A DNA stretch of 64,000 nt, taken from contig JAGLDS010000009.1 in the NCBI GenBank assembly GCA_023145435.1, forward strand, positions 1-64,000, read 5' to 3'. The notes under the pieces are model-generated. The model made no database searches. It worked only from the letters and a program-made list of their open reading frames with translations, and was not told the origin of the DNA. Below are positions 44,035 to 55,417 of the stretch, one piece after another; within the stretch, counting starts at the first letter, position 1, and each line of letters starts with the position of its first letter. The stretch comes from Clostridiales bacterium (lineage in GTDB: Bacteria; Bacillota; Clostridia; DUPQ01). The position numbers were made by a program, and so were the translations under genes.

Positions 44035-44042
44035 AACTTAAA

Positions 44043-44068
44043 GGAAAGCACAAGTTGCTTTTCTTTTT
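44043..44068 (+). terminator. Intrinsic terminator after the URO-D gene
   Basis: GGAAAGCA-CAAGT-TGCTTTTC makes a stem of 6 or more pairs and runs into TTTTTT, 9 bases after the stop. Confidence 0.75.
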
Positions 44069-44374: not shown

Positions 44375-44420
44375 TTGAATATGTTTTAACCTTATGCTAC
44401 AATGTAACGACAGTTACATT
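44375..44420 (+). promoter_or_regulatory. Promoter and operator-like dyad of the chr module
   Basis: TTGAAT (44375-44380), a 17-base spacer and TACAAT (44398-44403). A perfect inverted repeat AATGTAAC-GACA-GTTACATT (44401-44420) begins within the -10 and covers the expected start of transcription, an ideal place for repressor binding. Confidence 0.65.
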
Positions 44421-44438
44421 TGACCATGGAGATTAATT

Positions 44439-44897
44439 ATGAAATGGATACTTCTTCAATACGAATTACCCAATGAACCTAGTAAATACAGGGTAGGAAT
44501 ATGGAGACGACTTAAAAAGCAAAATGCATATAAACTACTTGATGGTTTATATTGTTTACCTTATACAGATAGTTCATTAGAACGTTTTAATTGGATAAGT
44601 GCTGATATCGAAAAAATGGGCGGTAAAGCAATGCTTTGGGCATCTGATGCATTGCTTCAAGGACAAGAAGCAGAAATAATTAAAAAGAAAACTAAAGCTA
44701 TTAAAATGCAATATGAAAAACTTTATGAAAAAATAAATGAAATAAGTAAAGATGAAATTACAATGTCTATGTTTAAAGAGTTTTCTCGTCAATGGGCAGA
44801 TATTAAATGGCATGACCCAGTAGGAGATCCTTTAGGGGAAAGTATTAAAGACTTATTAACCAAAATAAGAATCATGATAAGGAGGAATGAAAAATGA
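44439..44897 (+). CDS. ChrB N-terminal-domain protein
   Basis: A 152-residue protein resembling the N-terminal part of ChrB: KWILLQYELPNEPSKYRVGI then WRRLKKQNAYKLLDGLYCLP match the family start. The C-terminal half is a charged helix. In ChrB regulators this part carries the PaaX-like DNA-binding side and acts as a chromate-responsive repressor; here it is a separate protein. It is the first gene after a promoter with a dyad and overlaps the next gene by 4 bases (ATGA). An autorepressor role is plausible but inferred. Confidence 0.78.
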   Translation: MKWILLQYELPNEPSKYRVGIWRRLKKQNAYKLLDGLYCLPYTDSSLERFNWISADIEKMGGKAMLWASDALLQGQEAEIIKKKTKAIKMQYEKLYEKINEISKDEITMSMFKEFSRQWADIKWHDPVGDPLGESIKDLLTKIRIMIRRNEK

Positions 44898-45307
44898 TAT
44901 GGACAACATGGGAAAATGTAGGAGTAGATAGAATGGCATGTGCTTGGTTTATAAGACGTTATCTAGATGAAAAAGCCACTTTTGACTTTTTACCTTACGG
45001 AACAAAAGCACAAAAATTCGAAAATACCTTCGATATGCCTGGTGCACAATATAGTCATAATAGAGGAAAATGTTCATTTGCAGCAATTGTGAAAAAAAAT
45101 CGTAGCAAAGATAAAGTTCTTAACCTAATGATTGAAATTGTTGATGGCGCTGATGAAGTAAGCGATAGGTTACCTCCACCTGAGAGTTATGGTTTAGAAG
45201 CTCTTTGTGTTGGAACAAGACTTGCAAATAAAACGGATATAAAAGCATTAGATAAAGGAATGGAACTATATGATGCATTATACTTATATATTAAGAATAA
45301 AGGTTAA
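44894..45307 (+). CDS. ChrB C-terminal-domain protein, first copy
   Basis: A 137-residue ChrB C-domain protein. VGVDRMACAWFIRRYLDEKA, FDMPGAQYSHNRGKCSF and IVDGADEVSDRL and YGLEALCVGTRLA give the family outline. The usual HVDR...CPW motif reads GVDR...CAW, so one His and the Pro are missing compared with the second copy at 48867. The split of ChrB into two coupled genes (44439 and 44894) is unusual. The domain probably senses or binds an oxyanion or metal; substrate unknown here. Confidence 0.82.
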   Translation: MIWTTWENVGVDRMACAWFIRRYLDEKATFDFLPYGTKAQKFENTFDMPGAQYSHNRGKCSFAAIVKKNRSKDKVLNLMIEIVDGADEVSDRLPPPESYGLEALCVGTRLANKTDIKALDKGMELYDALYLYIKNKG

Positions 45308-45316
45308 AATTTAATA

Positions 45317-47086
45317 ATGAAAAAAACAACTAATTTTGCACCACCAGAAAAAAAATTAAAGCTACGTGCATATATATTTAAATATCCCAAAGAATTTTGG
45401 CTTCAAGCAGGCGGTGGCATTCTATATAATACACTAATAGTTTCAGGTCCAATATTCTTAGGTAAAGCTATTGATGCAGCCGCAAATGTAAAAAACTTAG
45501 GTGCATCATATTCCCCTTTCTATTTATATCTAATTCTATTTGTTATCAGTACAGCACTATTTCAAGTTGCACGCTATTTTAAAAGATGGTATATGCGTGA
45601 TATAGCTAATAGGATGAAATGTGATATGCGTGCTGGATTATTAGAAACAGCATTTAATCGTAAAATGAGTGAACTTGATACTGAAAAAGTCGGAGACATG
45701 ATGAGTAGAATGATAGGTGATGTAGATCAAGTATGTAGAGTAGTTCAAATCACCATAACAGAAATATGGGATGCTTGTCTTTTAATGATTTCATATTTTG
45801 TAGCTTGTATGATCTATACTCCGTCAATAACCCTTTTAGCAATAATTCCTATTCCTTTAACAATTCTTGCTGCTCAATTAATAAGACACCCTCTATATAG
45901 ATTATCTTTACATTCACGTGAATCAGCATCTAATGTCAATGTGCATTTACAACATACTATATCAAGTATAACCTTACTTCGTTTATTCGGCCGTGAAGAA
46001 AGTGAACATAAAAAACTTACACAACTTATGAAAAAACAATTAAAATGGGGAATTCTAACAACCCTTCTCCAAAATGCAATGATTCCCATATATATTTTAT
46101 CTGCTTCTCTTGGATTAATACTAATTGTAGGTATGGGTGGTAAGTTAGTTATAAATGGCCAGTGGACTATTGGAACATTTACAGCATATTTAACTATGTT
46201 TTCAGCTATGGCAGTAAGAACTAATATGGTTGCTCGTGTATTTAACATGTGGCATGGAGCAAAGGCCTCATGGGATAGAATACTAATAAAACTTTCTACT
46301 AAAAATAATGCAAGTAATCAACCTAATGAATTAAAAGAAGAAAATATTACAGAAATAAAAAATCTTAAAGTAGAAAATTTATCATTTTCATTTACAAATA
46401 GTACAAAGGTATTAGATGATATTTCATTCAATGTTTTAGCTGGCCAAATTATAGGTATTACAGGTCCTGTAGGTTCAGGTAAAAGTGCATTAGCTCAAGC
46501 TTTATCTGGACTTTATCCATATGAAGGTAAAGCACAAATAGATGGTTTAGATATATTTAATAATAGTGAAGTTTCTGGAAAAATAGCATATATGGACTCA
46601 GACCACTTTGTTTTTTCACGTGATGTTCGTTTTAATATAGGACTTGAAAGAAAAAGCGAAGAAGAAATTCTAGTATCATCTAATGACGCTGCTCTTACAA
46701 AAGACATAGAGGAATTTGATGAAGGTCTTTTAACTAAATTAGGTGAAAGAGGTCAGCGCATTTCAGGTGGTCAACGTCAACGTATTTGTCTTGCAAGAGC
46801 ATTGGCTAGTAATGCTAAAATACTAATACTTGATGATCCATTTTCAGCAATTGATATTAACCTTGAAGAACAAATTATGAGTTCCTTAAAAAAAGACATA
46901 GGAAATCGTATTATACTGCTATTTTCTCATCGCCTTATGACGTTTTCATATTGTAACCAAGTTATGGTGTTAGAAAAAGGACGTCTAATACAAAAAGGTC
47001 CCCACGAAACTTTAGTTAATACAAAGGGACTTTATAAGGATATATTTGAAGCACAATGCTTTATGGGTGGTGAGGAAAATGATTAA
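45317..47086 (+). CDS. ABC exporter half-subunit with degenerate Walker B
   Basis: A 589-residue fused membrane-ATPase (type IV/ABCB-like) half transporter. Six helices occupy the first 310 residues. The ATPase has Walker A GITGPVGSGKSALAQAL, signature RISGGQRQRICLARAL and Walker B LILDDPFSAID, where Asp replaces the catalytic Glu. In heterodimeric exporters that marks the subunit of the non-hydrolysing site. It begins 9 bases after the ChrB C-domain gene and overlaps its partner by 8 bases. Confidence 0.9.
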   Translation: MKKTTNFAPPEKKLKLRAYIFKYPKEFWLQAGGGILYNTLIVSGPIFLGKAIDAAANVKNLGASYSPFYLYLILFVISTALFQVARYFKRWYMRDIANRMKCDMRAGLLETAFNRKMSELDTEKVGDMMSRMIGDVDQVCRVVQITITEIWDACLLMISYFVACMIYTPSITLLAIIPIPLTILAAQLIRHPLYRLSLHSRESASNVNVHLQHTISSITLLRLFGREESEHKKLTQLMKKQLKWGILTTLLQNAMIPIYILSASLGLILIVGMGGKLVINGQWTIGTFTAYLTMFSAMAVRTNMVARVFNMWHGAKASWDRILIKLSTKNNASNQPNELKEENITEIKNLKVENLSFSFTNSTKVLDDISFNVLAGQIIGITGPVGSGKSALAQALSGLYPYEGKAQIDGLDIFNNSEVSGKIAYMDSDHFVFSRDVRFNIGLERKSEEEILVSSNDAALTKDIEEFDEGLLTKLGERGQRISGGQRQRICLARALASNAKILILDDPFSAIDINLEEQIMSSLKKDIGNRIILLFSHRLMTFSYCNQVMVLEKGRLIQKGPHETLVNTKGLYKDIFEAQCFMGGEEND

Positions 47087-48827
47087 ATCTGCAGTAACTA
47101 AAGTATTTAAAAAGTTTTGGTGGATATATATTATTTTACTTGTAATGATTATTGCTAGTATGGGCTTACAGCTTCTTCCTGCATTACTATTACGAGATAT
47201 TGTAGATAATCATTTTTCTACTAAATTGTTTGAAGGAGTTTGGCGTCTAGCAATTTATTACCTTGCTGTAATGGCAGTTATTAATATTGCAGAGTTTTTA
47301 AAAACGATTGTAACAACATGGTTAGGTCAACAAACTTTACTTGAAGTACGTAACAATATGGCAGCAAGACTATTAAAATTACCAATTAGCTATTTTGCCA
47401 AAACACCTGTAGGAGAAGTGATGAGTCGCCTAACAACCGATGTAGGGGCTATAAATACTCTATTCTCAGCAGGAATTATCAATGTACTTACTGACATGCT
47501 TAAAATTTTTGGTTTAGTTGGTTCACTATATATTCTTGCACCTCAGTTATTATGGTTAGTAGCTGTGTGTTTTCCTCTAATATTATTTTTATCTAACTTC
47601 TTTAGAAAAAGAATTTTTATGCTTGAAAAGAAAGTACGTATATGTATAGCTGACATATATACTTTTATTCAAGAATGGTTAAAAGGTATACAAACAGTAA
47701 AAGCATATAATATGGAAGAACAAGGTAAAGATGATTTCCAAAAACCATTACACACACATTTAAAAAACATAAATGGTATTTCAAAATATGACAGTTGGTT
47801 TCCATGTGTCATGCAAACATTTAAAGCTCTAATAATAGCATTGGCTGTATTTTTTGCAGCACAAAACGGAACCTCATTTTCCATAGGTTTAAGCATTGGA
47901 ACACTTGTAGCAGTTGCTGATTTAATAGGACGATTATTTTCACCTATTGAGGCACTAGCAAAACAATTTCAAACGATTCAACAAGCTATGGCAGGTATAG
48001 AACGTATAAAGGAATTTAGTAAAATACCAATTGAAATAAGAGAAATTAAATCTCAAAAGCTTAACATGAAAAAAGGCATTGAATTAGAAAATATACATTT
48101 TGCTTATGATAATAAAAAAGTATTACATGGAATAAATTTAATAATAAAACCAGGTAATAAAGAAGTTCTTGTAGGACGAAGTGGAGAAGGTAAAACAACA
48201 CTAATGAATCTTGTGGCAGGATTAACCGTTCCCCTTAAAGGAACCGTTAGAGTATGTGGAATAGATCCATTTGCTTTATCACCTAATGAAAGAAGAAAAT
48301 TATTTGGTATTGTTCCCCAGATGCCACAAGTATTTAACGGAACAGTCCGTGATAATATTACATTGCGAGATAACTCAATATCACAAGATGATGTTATAGA
48401 AGCTGCAAAGCTAGTTGGATTAGATGACACAATAAAAGTCATGCCAAAGGGTTACTTAACACAACTTGGAGAAGGCGAATCATCTTTATCAAGTGGAGAA
48501 ATACAACTTATGTCCCTTGCAAGAGCGGTTGTTTTAAAGCCTAAAGTATTATTGCTTGATGAACCAACATCTGGTATTGATGCTTATACTGAAGCTAAAG
48601 TTTTTAAAGCAATACATCAGATAAGCCAAGGTAGAACCATTCTATCTATTAGTCACCGTATCAGCGGTATAATAGATGCAAGCTGTGTACACATGCTTAC
48701 TAAGGGTAAAATTGTTGAATCAGGTACAGCCAATCAACTAGCCAAAAGTAATGGATGGTATTCCTCATACAAACGTATGGAAGATGCAGGATGGAAATTT
48801 ACAGAAATAACCCCAGAAAGTATATAA
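47079..48827 (+). CDS. ABC exporter half-subunit, catalytic partner
   Basis: A 582-residue half transporter. Walker A is VLVGRSGEGKTTLMNL, Walker B has the catalytic Glu (VLLLDEPTSGIDA), and the signature is LSSGEIQLMSLARAV, departing from LSGGQ. Together with the subunit at 45317 this gives one good ATP site (its own Walker motifs with the partner LSGGQ) and one weak site, as in TM287/288-type exporters. The start ATG at 47079 has GAGGAAA upstream. ChrB C-domain copy 2 follows 39 bases on. Confidence 0.9.
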   Translation: MIKSAVTKVFKKFWWIYIILLVMIIASMGLQLLPALLLRDIVDNHFSTKLFEGVWRLAIYYLAVMAVINIAEFLKTIVTTWLGQQTLLEVRNNMAARLLKLPISYFAKTPVGEVMSRLTTDVGAINTLFSAGIINVLTDMLKIFGLVGSLYILAPQLLWLVAVCFPLILFLSNFFRKRIFMLEKKVRICIADIYTFIQEWLKGIQTVKAYNMEEQGKDDFQKPLHTHLKNINGISKYDSWFPCVMQTFKALIIALAVFFAAQNGTSFSIGLSIGTLVAVADLIGRLFSPIEALAKQFQTIQQAMAGIERIKEFSKIPIEIREIKSQKLNMKKGIELENIHFAYDNKKVLHGINLIIKPGNKEVLVGRSGEGKTTLMNLVAGLTVPLKGTVRVCGIDPFALSPNERRKLFGIVPQMPQVFNGTVRDNITLRDNSISQDDVIEAAKLVGLDDTIKVMPKGYLTQLGEGESSLSSGEIQLMSLARAVVLKPKVLLLDEPTSGIDAYTEAKVFKAIHQISQGRTILSISHRISGIIDASCVHMLTKGKIVESGTANQLAKSNGWYSSYKRMEDAGWKFTEITPESI

Positions 48828-48866
48828 ATATATTTTATATATATTAAATTAAAGGAGAATAAAATT

Positions 48867-49301
48867 ATGAAATGGGTAACAAGATCAAGAGTTCATGTGG
48901 ATAGAGTAGCATGTCCATGGCTAATTAAAAGATTCGTAGATACGAAAGCAGAAATTATTTTTGTTGCAAGGGACTTAGTTCCAGAGATTGCAAAAAAAGA
49001 AGGTGCAATACCTTTTGATACCGGCCCCGTTGAATTAGGACATAAAGATGGCCATTGTACATTTGTTACAATAATAAATGCATACAATTTAGGTGGAGAT
49101 CCAGCTTTAAAAATGCTAGCAGATGTAGTTAATGCTGCTGATACATACAAGTTAGATGATAATCCCTATGCCCATGGTCTTGAAGCAATAGCAGTAGGAT
49201 TTGGTATGTTATTTCCAGATGACTATGAAAATCTAGAATATCAATTTTTAGTATATGACGCTATGTATAACTATTTTAGATTGCAAGCTAGTAAAAAGTA
49301 A
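48867..49301 (+). CDS. ChrB C-terminal-domain protein, second copy
   Basis: A 144-residue ChrB C-domain protein that keeps the full motif: RSRVHVDRVACPWLIKRFVD, then IPFDTGPVELGHKDGHCTF, VVNAADTYKLDD and HGLEAIAVGFGM. AAAGGAG precedes the ATG. It is the last gene of the module and is followed by a terminator. The intact His/Cys set suggests this copy is the active binder or enzyme, while the first may be structural or divergent. Confidence 0.86.
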   Translation: MKWVTRSRVHVDRVACPWLIKRFVDTKAEIIFVARDLVPEIAKKEGAIPFDTGPVELGHKDGHCTFVTIINAYNLGGDPALKMLADVVNAADTYKLDDNPYAHGLEAIAVGFGMLFPDDYENLEYQFLVYDAMYNYFRLQASKK

Positions 49302-49330
49302 TTTAATAAGTTCAAAGTATAATTAAAAAA

Positions 49331-49367
49331 CAAAAAGCAAGAATCAACTAAGGTTCTTGTTTTTTTA
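49331..49367 (+). terminator. Intrinsic terminator of the chr module
   Basis: CAAGAA (49338-49343) pairs with TTCTTG (49354-49359), extended by A-T pairs, and leads into seven T. It lies 30 bases after the last ChrB-domain gene. Confidence 0.8.
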
Positions 49368-51850: not shown

Positions 51851-51950
51851 GTTGATAATAGTTGTCTAAAATCATTCTGTAATCTATACCTTCACTAAAG
51901 TGAGAAAGAAAGCATTGCGGTGGGCGACTTAATGTCAACTATGTTAAATC
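51851..51950. repeat. Structured repeat, copy 2 (diverged)
   Basis: It repeats the core of the element at 37442-37540: TTCAC-TAAA-GTGAG hairpin (51891-51904), GAAAGAAAGCATTGCGG, and GTCAACTATG at the end. The outer arms are weaker (ATAGTTG 51858-51864 and CAACTAT 51936-51942). The right end overlaps the stop codon of the adjacent ABC gene. The hairpin T-A to C-G change keeps pairing. Confidence 0.5.
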
Positions 51951-53650
51951 CCAAACTCTTTATAATATAGCTCAGCATATAACCCTTTTTGTAAGAGTAG
52001 CTCACTATGAGTTCCATCTTCAACAACCGTTCCATCTTTGATATAAAATATATTATCAGCATTCTCTATAGTTGATAGACGATGTGCTACTACAATACTG
52101 GTTTTTCCTACCATTAATTTTAAAAGAGCCTCTTGTATTAATTGCTCAGATTCACTATCTAAACTGGATGTAGCCTCATCTAATAAAAGAATTGGTGCAT
52201 TCTTAAGTATTGCTCTGGCAATAGCTACTCGCTGTCTCTGCCCACCTGAGAGTTTTATACCTCTTTCTCCAACTTTTGTATCATATCCATCTTTTAGAGA
52301 GGAAATAAAATCATGTGCATTAGCTTTTTTACATGCTTCTACTATTTCATCCATATTTGCATCGTTTTTCCCATATAAAACATTTTCATATACTGTTCCA
52401 TTGAAAATGTACGCATCTTGAGGTACATAAGCAATAATATTACGTAGCTCATCAAGTGAATATTCATTGATTGGTTTAGCGTTAATAGTCATCATACCAG
52501 AATTAGCTTCATAAAGACCCATTAGTAACTTTATAATAGTGCTTTTTCCACCACCACTATTTCCAACAAGTGCTACTACTTGTCCAACTTTAACATTAAT
52601 ATTTACATCATTTAAAACCGCTATATCTTCTATGTAATTAAAACTTAAGTTTTCAAGGTATACTCCTGATAAGTAATTACTACTTGTAATTGAATATTTT
52701 TCAGGCTCTATATCTTCTGCAAATAATTCAACAAGCCTATCAAGACCTGCCAGCGGTTTTTGTAATTCAGTATTTGTACTAAACATTCTCATAAAATTTC
52801 CTGCCATATTTCCTGAAATCATAGTCCCACCTACAAGTACACTTGCTTCCATTGAACCATTGATTACAAAATATATACCAGATACAGCTAGACCACCTTG
52901 ACTTATCCACCACATTAAAGCATTTATTGAATACAGTTTTGCACGGAGCATATTCTCTTGCATTTTAAGTCCATATATATTATCAATTCGTTCATCAAAC
53001 TTAGAAAGAAACCAAGGTTTAAGCAAGAATAATTTTATAACTCTAAACCCTGTGACATTCTCTGTAATTGCTTCTGCTAAAATTGCAGTTTCCTTATGAA
53101 TCTCTTTTGATTTATTCCTCATAGGTTTAATAAACTTAATATTTATTATGGCCATTATTATACTTATTACTATTGCAATCACTGCAAATCGCAAATCAAG
53201 GTATATAAAGTAGGGAATCATAAAAAGTAATGCAATAAATGCTATGATAAAATGTTCAACTCCCCTAATTACATCTTTTGTAGATTCAATATCTTTATTC
53301 ATTCTAGATATTAAATCACCACTATGATGATTATCAAAATATGCAACTGGTAATTTTCTAACATGATTATATGATTTAATTCTTAGGTGTTGCATGCACT
53401 CTTCAATAATAGCTGCTTTTTTAATCACTAGTATTGGCTCTAAAATAACAATAAGAGCTGTTACTAAACCTACTTCAATTAAAACTCTTGTTAGCATTTC
53501 CTTTTCAAAATTAATAAAGTAATCTATTAATGATTTAAAAGAATCGGAGAATAGAACCATAATAAAACCTTGAAACATCCCAAGAATGATCATAAAGATA
53601 AGAACTTTTTTTATTTTATTATCAGTTAATTTTAATATTTTTTTAATCAT
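51944..53650 (-). CDS. ABC exporter half-subunit
   Basis: A 568-residue ABCB-type half transporter. About six helices occupy the first 310 residues; Walker A is ALVGNSGGGKSTIIKL, the signature KLSGGQRQRVAIARA and Walker B ILLLDEATSSLD, all canonical. It follows the partner gene with no gap (stop TAA next to ATG). A homo- or heterodimer with both sites intact is expected. Substrate unknown; multidrug and peptide exporters share this form. Confidence 0.92.
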   Translation of the reverse strand: MIKKILKLTDNKIKKVLIFMIILGMFQGFIMVLFSDSFKSLIDYFINFEKEMLTRVLIEVGLVTALIVILEPILVIKKAAIIEECMQHLRIKSYNHVRKLPVAYFDNHHSGDLISRMNKDIESTKDVIRGVEHFIIAFIALLFMIPYFIYLDLRFAVIAIVISIIMAIINIKFIKPMRNKSKEIHKETAILAEAITENVTGFRVIKLFLLKPWFLSKFDERIDNIYGLKMQENMLRAKLYSINALMWWISQGGLAVSGIYFVINGSMEASVLVGGTMISGNMAGNFMRMFSTNTELQKPLAGLDRLVELFAEDIEPEKYSITSSNYLSGVYLENLSFNYIEDIAVLNDVNINVKVGQVVALVGNSGGGKSTIIKLLMGLYEANSGMMTINAKPINEYSLDELRNIIAYVPQDAYIFNGTVYENVLYGKNDANMDEIVEACKKANAHDFISSLKDGYDTKVGERGIKLSGGQRQRVAIARAILKNAPILLLDEATSSLDSESEQLIQEALLKLMVGKTSIVVAHRLSTIENADNIFYIKDGTVVEDGTHSELLLQKGLYAELYYKEFGI

Positions 53651-55417
53651 TTAAGCCTCCTGCAAAGTAACTTGTTTTAAATATATTTCACTATATCTAC
53701 CACCAGCTTTAATCAATGTATTATGATTACCTTCTTCTATTACTTTTCCGTTTTCAATTAGAACTATCTTATCTGAATTTTCAATAGTAGAAAGTCTGTG
53801 TGCAATAACAAATACAGTTTTGCCCTCTTCTAACTTTTCTAAAGCTAGTTTTACATAATGCTCAGCTTTTGTATCTAGTGCACTAGTTGGTTCATCTAAC
53901 AATAATATTGGTGCATCTTTTAACATAGCACGTGCAATTGCTATCCTTTGTCTTTGCCCACCTGATAGACTCATTCCTCGTTCTCCAAGTATAGTTTCAT
54001 ATCCTTCTTTTGTTTCCATAATGAATTCATCTGCATATGCATTCTTAGCAGCGATTATTACTTGCTCATCACTAGCTTCAATATCTCCATATCTTATGTT
54101 TTCCATTATGGAGCTATTAAATAAATATACTTCTTGATTAACCACGCTTATATGTTTTCTTAAATCTTCAAGTTTCCACTTATTAAGATTGTGATTACAT
54201 ATTTTTATTGATCCTTTGTAATTTTCATAGAATCCTAGAAAAAGTTTATTTATGGTAGTTTTTCCACTTCCACTAACTCCAACAAGTGCTACCTTGCTTC
54301 CCTTTTTCACATTGAAAGTAATATCAGACAAAATAGAAATATCTTTAACATAGTTAAATTTCACATTTTCCATAGATAATACGCTTTGTTGATTACTATC
54401 ATAAAGATTCTCACCATCTTGTCTCTCATCAGGTGTATCTAACACTTCTAGTACTCTTTTTGCAATTCCCATGTCAACTAACAATTGCGAATAATCACTT
54501 GGAAGTCTTCTTATAATGCCTCTCACTCTCCCAAATATATATGAGAATGCATATACCTCTCCAATAGTCATTTTACCTTGTACAATGAAAATACCTCCAA
54601 AGCAATATACAACTATTTCTGGTAAGAAAAATCCTAGAAAACCAAGTACATCAGAAAAAGCTCTTTTTTTACTGATTTTTATGTTCTCTTTGTTTATCAT
54701 TCCACATGATTGTTCAAACTTTTTACCATGTATTTTAGACATGTTAAATGACTTATATGTAATAACACCTTCTGCAAAATCTCTAAGATAAGAATTGTAT
54801 TTTGCAGTTGCTTCTTGAACATTACTTGAAGCTTCCTTAATTGGTTTTGCTACTTTCATCATGATCCAGCCAATTAGTGGAACAATAGCTGAAGCAATTA
54901 ATGTAAGCTCCCATGACATCCTAAGTGATAACACTAACCCAAAGATAAACATAGTTGGCATAAAACTTACACTACCTGCAAGAAAGTTAGGGAAAAAACT
55001 TGAAAGTTTTTCTATATCACTAACTAAAACACTAATTGAATCTCCTGTATGTTTATCTTCATAATAATTAATCTTAAGATTATTAATCTTTGATATACAT
55101 AATCTAGATAAATGATTACCAGCTTTCACAGAAAATTTGCTTCCAAAATATGGATTAATAAAGTTTATTACTCCTCTAGCTATGATAAAGACTGCAACAT
55201 ATATTAAAAATTGATAGAATCTGTCCATGTCGCCACTTAGTGCCACATCTAATGTCTGCCCCATTACCCATCCACTAATAACTCCAATAGAAGCACTTGC
55301 TATGCCACCAGCCCAACGGATCATTCCATATGGCATATGCTTTCTTACTAAACTATAGAGTTTTATTAATGTCTTTATTATTTCAATAAAAGATATTTTA
55401 CTACTTTTTTTATTCAT
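53651..55417 (-). CDS. ABC exporter half-subunit, partner
   Basis: A 588-residue ABCB-type half transporter. Helices fill the first 320 residues; Walker A is ALVGVSGSGKTTINKL, signature SLSGGQRQRIAIARAML and Walker B ILLLDEPTSALD, all canonical. It is the first gene of a two-gene operon with the subunit at 51944. Upstream is a promoter overlapped by a palindrome (55469-55497). Compared with the chr-module pair, both ATP sites are standard. Confidence 0.92.
   Translation of the reverse strand: MNKKSSKISFIEIIKTLIKLYSLVRKHMPYGMIRWAGGIASASIGVISGWVMGQTLDVALSGDMDRFYQFLIYVAVFIIARGVINFINPYFGSKFSVKAGNHLSRLCISKINNLKINYYEDKHTGDSISVLVSDIEKLSSFFPNFLAGSVSFMPTMFIFGLVLSLRMSWELTLIASAIVPLIGWIMMKVAKPIKEASSNVQEATAKYNSYLRDFAEGVITYKSFNMSKIHGKKFEQSCGMINKENIKISKKRAFSDVLGFLGFFLPEIVVYCFGGIFIVQGKMTIGEVYAFSYIFGRVRGIIRRLPSDYSQLLVDMGIAKRVLEVLDTPDERQDGENLYDSNQQSVLSMENVKFNYVKDISILSDITFNVKKGSKVALVGVSGSGKTTINKLFLGFYENYKGSIKICNHNLNKWKLEDLRKHISVVNQEVYLFNSSIMENIRYGDIEASDEQVIIAAKNAYADEFIMETKEGYETILGERGMSLSGGQRQRIAIARAMLKDAPILLLDEPTSALDTKAEHYVKLALEKLEEGKTVFVIAHRLSTIENSDKIVLIENGKVIEEGNHNTLIKAGGRYSEIYLKQVTLQEA

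Follow-up and report, generated by a model that had tools for sequence, protein, structure and literature searches.

The 64,000-nucleotide stretch analysed here (the window; contig JAGLDS010000009.1 of a Clostridiales bacterium) carries at positions 44375-49367 a five-gene operon for a ChrB_N-domain protein, a ChrB_C-domain protein (ChrB_C1), two ATP-binding cassette (ABC) half-exporters (A and B) and a second ChrB_C-domain protein (ChrB_C2). The locus is probably a chr-type efflux operon, with an ABC heterodimer in place of the transporter ChrA and a split ChrB that keeps the operon repressed until a toxicant is sensed. ChrB_N would bind the palindrome TGTAAC-N4-GTTACA at the -10 box and block transcription, with ChrB_C1, encoded in the overlapping frame, as its non-covalent sensor partner. 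Once chromate or a chemically related toxic oxyanion, or a product of it, has entered the cell, ChrB_C1 would change state and ChrB_N would be released, allowing formation of the ABC exporter and ChrB_C2; the former would then remove the toxicant or its conjugate, and the latter may have an accessory role like that of ChrF in classical operons. A substrate differing from chromate is possible. This reading draws on the packing of the genes, the operator found at ChrB_N promoters and its one-mismatch copies in Actinobacteria and Deinococcus, the invariance of two ChrB_N arginines, the PaaX/Cas2-like ChrB_N model, the chromate-induced relatives of Arthrobacter sp. FB24 and the adjacency of ChrB_N to the same ABC type in other Clostridia (loci L131-L133). 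The operon comprises the following features:

44375..44403, + strand: promoter, TTGAAT and TACAAT with a 17-nt spacer, TG preceding the -10 box (consensus match)
44403..44418, + strand: operator, perfect inverted repeat TGTAAC-GACA-GTTACA, predicted ChrB_N binding site (conservation)
44439..44897, + strand: ChrB_N protein, 152 amino acids, predicted operator-binding half of split ChrB (PF20229; R18 and R23 kept)
44894..45307, + strand: ChrB_C1, 137 amino acids, predicted sensor half of split ChrB (PF09828, tree, alignment)
45317..47086, + strand: ABC half-exporter A, 589 amino acids (PF00664 and PF00005)
47079..48827, + strand: ABC half-exporter B, 582 amino acids, ATG at 47079 (PF00664 and PF00005)
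48867..49301, + strand: ChrB_C2, ChrF-type protein, 144 amino acids (PF09828, tree, structure model)
49332..49365, + strand: intrinsic terminator-like hairpin with T run, -14.9 kcal/mol

Gene content and distribution of the operon

The five open reading frames and the domains first assigned to them from sequence alone were all confirmed by Pfam: (i) ChrB_N (PF20229) in 44439-44897 (E 3.7e-5, 24.1 bits against a cut-off of 23), (ii) ChrB_C (PF09828) in 44894-45307 (E 5.9e-36) and in 48867-49301 (E 2.5e-41), and (iii) ABC_membrane together with ABC_tran in both ABC genes. Curated NCBIfam names were not found for the ChrB proteins of the operon. The genes for ChrB_N and ChrB_C1 overlap by 4 nt and those for the two half-exporters by 8 nt, with gaps of 9 nt between ChrB_C1 and A and of 39 nt ahead of ChrB_C2. 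A sequencing error splitting one ChrB gene was ruled out, as L095, L096 and Arthrobacter FB24 show the identical split with the identical overlap. Of the promoter and terminator originally proposed for the operon, a consensus promoter and a terminator-like hairpin are present, though consensus matches of either kind are no commoner in the region than in shuffled sequence; the promoter at 44375-44403 is convincing because the operator begins on the last base of its -10 box. A uroporphyrinogen-decarboxylase-like gene (PF01208, 43057-44034) immediately precedes the operon on the same strand and has its own terminator-like site (44040-44066); it was judged to lie outside the operon.

ChrA (PF02417) was not found in the genome assembly of the organism (1.44 Mb, 69 % complete), while the same search was positive in 9 of 14 control genomes; the lack of ChrA first noted for the window was thus borne out across the whole assembly. 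The operon accordingly contains no ChrA/CHR-family transporter, a component by which chr operons are recognized. The assembly encodes one ChrB_N and three ChrB_C proteins, the third ChrB_C gene (C1:68520-68930) being followed by a gene for a major facilitator superfamily (MFS) transporter.

Relatives of the ChrB_C1 gene with more than 75 % identity were detected in the same family only (G007, G010). The full five-gene order recurs in G007, which represents another genus of this family (L005/L095; 83 % identity for ABC A, 94 % for ChrB_C2), and the proposed tie of a ChrB-type regulator to an ABC heterodimer without ChrA has thereby been upheld in a second genus. Beyond it, the search in other genomes suggested by the sequence-only reading yielded no further locus of this order with the ABC pair in samples of 391 class and 399 phylum genomes, and nothing further in the groups around G533 and G422. 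The five-gene order is thus rare without being unique to this genome. In G010 (L096), chrBN and chrBC1 are followed by a rhodanese gene, a MarR-like open reading frame and the contig end; this rhodanese-domain gene (L096:10637-10957), located behind the split chrB of a sister species, recalls chrE of Cupriavidus.

Outside the family, ChrB genes adjoin various exporters. ChrB_N is encoded in 10 of the 391 class genomes; in the seven outside the family it occurs without ChrB_C and stands beside an MFS transporter (L149-L152), a P2-type ATPase (L132, L153) or an ABC pair (L131-L133). These clostridial units resemble the operon in having ChrB_N and the same operator next to an exporter, which in L131-L133 is of the same ABC type (35-37 % identity), but differ from it in lacking a ChrB_C gene. 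Within 3 kb of 85 stand-alone ChrB_C genes, an MFS gene was present in 42 cases, ChrA in 8 and a same-strand ABC pair in 2 (the window and L095), and none of these in 33, some of which lie at contig ends. The statement that known ChrB proteins accompany ChrA was therefore too narrow. Likewise, splitting of ChrB and doubling of its C-domain, at first regarded as unusual, are known from Arthrobacter FB24 (PMC2751784) and chrBAC(E)F operons, and sets of chrBN, chrBC1 and chrBC2 were found at loci of Alicyclobacillus, Sulfobacillus, Acididesulfobacillus, Chloroflexi and Spirochaetes. In Alicyclobacillus (L077), a single run comprises chrBC2, a beta-propeller gene, an MFS gene, chrBN and chrBC1.

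A conserved palindrome at ChrB_N promoters

The first base of the operator coincides with the last one of the -10 box, and the flanks lengthen the palindrome to ATGTAAC...GTTACAT. TGTAAC-GACA-GTTACA has its sole exact copy in the 1.44-Mb assembly here (0.12 expected). The pattern TGTAAY-N4-RTTACA was sought in all neighbourhood loci by an automatic test covering up to 300 bp upstream of each ChrB-domain gene, and was present at 21 of 26 ChrB_N loci versus 1 of 72 loci without ChrB_N (Fisher 1e-15, a value that overstates independence since the loci are related, yet they span several phyla). The single positive among the latter (L097) belongs to a genome with ChrB_N elsewhere. The sole two further matches in about 1.31-1.33 Mb of loci, where 0.28 matches are expected by chance, lie at the operon promoters of L153 (preceding a P-type ATPase gene that stands before chrBN) and L160 (preceding an open reading frame before chrBN), such that the operator is located at the operon promoter in 23 of the 26 ChrB_N loci, from several phyla. 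Across loci, the arms of the palindrome are constant, in contrast to its freely varying four central bases. In Arthrobacter FB24, Dietzia, Tsukamurella, Streptomyces and Deinococcus, chrB(N) is closely preceded by a copy with one mismatch; the operator was not found at L098 and L099. The conservation of the palindrome and its position at the -10 box would fit binding of ChrB to its own promoter. No description of this operator was found in a literature search of partial coverage.

In case of fused ChrB, mutation of the repeat proposed for O. tritici did not abolish ChrB binding (PMC3817168). Upstream of chrB1 of Cupriavidus metallidurans pMOL28 (L177:1756-1771), a perfect palindrome, TGTAGAGATCTCTACA, was observed (TGTAGA-GATC-TCTACA), differing in sequence from the present operator, but sharing its 6-4-6 spacing; O. 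tritici-type DNA (L170, upstream of chrB) has TGTAGTAACATCTACG at the matching place. TGTAGAGATCTCTACA and TGTAGTAACATCTACG, rather than the published repeat, are candidates for the actual operators of fused ChrB.

ChrB proteins and the ABC pair

In 19 ChrB_N domains including that of the operon, R18 and R23 are invariant and identically positioned; O. tritici ChrB requires both residues to control its operator (PMC3817168). Residue numbering was checked on a TnOtChr-type ChrB from an Enterobacter plasmid, the upstream DNA of which contains the published O. tritici repeat, and R18, R23, R175, R180, R182, R187, R195, R196, C213, H229 and H258 were all at their published positions. The structure model of ChrB_N (predicted local distance difference test, pLDDT, 90.2) has Cas2 and the repressor PaaX as nearest solved folds (Foldseek probability 0.99-1.00, but E 0.006-0.009 and a template modelling (TM) score of 0.36-0.48 by query length), a likeness in keeping with a DNA-binding role. 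ChrB was not found described as PaaX-like in the partially covered literature.

In a maximum-likelihood tree, 107 ChrB_C domains fall into three sets, namely those of fused ChrB, those of split ChrB and the stand-alone domains. ChrB_C1 belongs to the split-ChrB set (12 members, support 100/92), in which 11 members have tryptophan at the position of R180. ChrB_C2 groups with classical chrF-position genes and MFS-linked ChrB_C proteins in the stand-alone set (support 94/92). Its nearest relatives are ChrB_C2 genes of its own family, mostly paired with MFS transporters, so ChrB_C2 looks like a local duplicate. As a stand-alone ChrB_C domain encoded by the last gene of the operon and affiliated with chrF-position genes in the tree, it is classed as a ChrF-type protein, its identity as ChrF being judged from gene position and size.

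The model of ChrB_C2 (mb08b03db3280) reaches a pLDDT of 96.8. ChrB_C has no relative in the PDB by sequence, and the best match by fold has a Foldseek E of 0.54 and a TM score below 0.3; given a confident model and no solved structural relative, ChrB_C may represent an unsolved fold. Neither a superoxide-dismutase fold nor a rhodanese fold was supported for ChrB_C. Mn-superoxide dismutase activity has been published for ChrF (PMC4779226); the ChrB_C model provides no structural explanation for it.

ABC half-exporter A combines a degenerate Walker B motif (ILILDDP) with a canonical signature (ISGGQ), and B a canonical Walker B motif (LLLDEP) with a degenerate signature (LSSGE). By these motifs, A and B form a heterodimeric type IV exporter with one degenerate ATP site, similar to the paired half-exporters TM287/288 and YheIH (BmrCD), which are only distantly related in sequence and have no link to ChrB. 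The closest relatives outside the family (n = 7; 35-37 % identity) score 323-343 bits versus at most 261 for all others. ChrB_N is encoded in the genomes of three of these seven versus 4 of 373 others (p 1.3e-4; two of the three represent one genus), and in these three (L131, L132, L133) the ABC pair adjoins ChrB_N. The remaining four have no ChrB genes beside the ABC pair, and one of them is MarR-linked. Of the two refuting outcomes named in the sequence-only reading, uniqueness of the order to this genome did not come true, but no ChrB_C gene stands alongside these nearest ABC relatives, and ChrB_N does in only 3 of 7. A second ABC half-exporter pair is encoded on the - strand at 51944-55417, about 2.6 kb beyond the operon, and is no close relative of the operon pair (phmmer 166-178 bits).

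Related systems and alternative functions

The closest published counterpart is the determinant of Arthrobacter sp. FB24 (ChrB-Nterm, ChrB-Cterm, ChrB-Cterm2, ChrA6; PMC2751784), which shares the split ChrB with its 4-nt overlap, the second ChrB C-terminal gene and a one-mismatch operator directly upstream of split chrB, but employs ChrA as exporter, retains R180 in its equivalent of ChrB_C1 and has its genes distributed over several transcription units. In FB24, chromate induces chrB-Nterm, chrB-Cterm and chrA, whereas lead, arsenate and H2O2 have a much smaller effect or none (PMC2751784). Plasmid 3 of FB24 carries an ABC half-exporter pair (L171:10080-13789), each subunit of which shares about 30 % identity with its counterpart in the operon; it follows chrB-Nterm/-Cterm on the same strand at a distance of 2.6 kb, beyond the published determinant. 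Plasmid-borne chrBN-chrBC-chrA genes of Dietzia, Tsukamurella and Streptomyces agree in the first two genes, the 4-nt overlap and the operator class, with chrA occupying the position of the ABC pair. O. tritici TnOtChr and C. metallidurans pMOL28 carry classical chrBA(C)(E)F operons, which likewise begin with a ChrB regulator and end with a ChrB_C-only gene (chrF position), but have a fused ChrB, ChrA as exporter, a superoxide dismutase gene and another operator sequence. Split ChrB and repeated ChrB_C are hence already known (FB24, 2009; chrBACF operons), while neither a ChrB/ABC operon, i.e., an ABC pair in the position of ChrA, nor the conserved ChrB_N operator was found described within the partial literature coverage.

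Several observations weigh against control of an oxyanion-exporting ABC heterodimer by split ChrB. No ABC exporter of this type is known to move free oxyanions, and at L130 and L134-L138 such exporters have no ChrB domain in their company. The operator was not found at the third, MFS-linked ChrB_C gene of the genome. ChrB_C1 keeps R13 (=R187) and H55 (=H229) but has W6 in place of R180; by alignment it is a ChrB_C protein with an incomplete R180/R187/H229 set of the chromate-sensing subset, and chromate as signal can therefore not be taken for granted. Moreover, neither half of O. tritici ChrB alone gave regulation (PMC3817168), so a working split requires both halves to associate.

Rather unlikely, but the strongest of the alternatives, is an exporter for organic toxicants or multiple drugs, with ChrB_N merely as local regulator and the ChrB_C proteins sensing redox or thiol stress instead of an oxyanion. 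The ABC motifs correspond to those of TM287/288 and YheIH/BmrCD, relatives of the pair are MarR-linked (L130, L138) as well as ChrB_N-linked (L131-L133), and ChrB_N also precedes MFS and P-type ATPase genes. In addition, archaea of the DHVE2/Aciduliprofundum group (L061:8120-11539, L078, L080) encode a stand-alone ChrB_C between dnaK and dnaJ, a gene order suggesting that ChrB_C may act in stress responses apart from transport. However, the sole experimentally induced relatives respond specifically to chromate (PMC2751784).

A true chromate-resistance operon, in which the ABC heterodimer has replaced ChrA and exports chromate or a Cr-thiol product, would be a narrower form of the favoured split-ChrB efflux operon and is distinctly improbable. 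ChrB_C2 retains all three residues that O. tritici ChrB needs to respond to chromate as inducer (PMC3817168), namely R180, R187 and H229 (here R6, R13, H59); the same operator class precedes the chromate-inducible split-chrB operon of FB24, and ChrA is among the transporters at this operon position elsewhere. Opposed to this are the tryptophan of ChrB_C1, the general heterodimeric multidrug type of the ABC relatives without ChrB domains and the many ChrB relatives paired with MFS proteins of unassigned substrate. A chance neighbourhood of unrelated ChrB and ABC genes, conceivable in view of the five-gene order in two genomes only, is largely refuted and highly improbable considering the order kept in another genus, the single promoter with overlapping genes and conserved operator, and the independent ChrB_N/ABC adjacency in other Clostridia.

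Beyond the preferred reading of a split-ChrB-controlled ABC efflux operon, it is quite conceivable, though somewhat less likely than not, that ChrB_N and TGTAAC-N4-GTTACA constitute a general, phylum-crossing repressor module for swappable exporters (ChrA, several MFS families, P2-type ATPases, ABC heterodimers). In this scheme, ChrB_C would be a detachable sensor that some systems do without, and the W180 subclass of ChrB_C present here would sense something different from chromate. The swapped exporters show that ChrB-type sensing is not bound to ChrA, and the naturally split sensor-repressor renders sensing and DNA binding separable for study. ChrB has been studied extensively as a chromate sensor, yet its operator has so far been unsettled; the palindrome kept at ChrB_N promoters from Clostridia to Actinobacteria represents a testable candidate and offers a sequence-based route to ChrB regulons.

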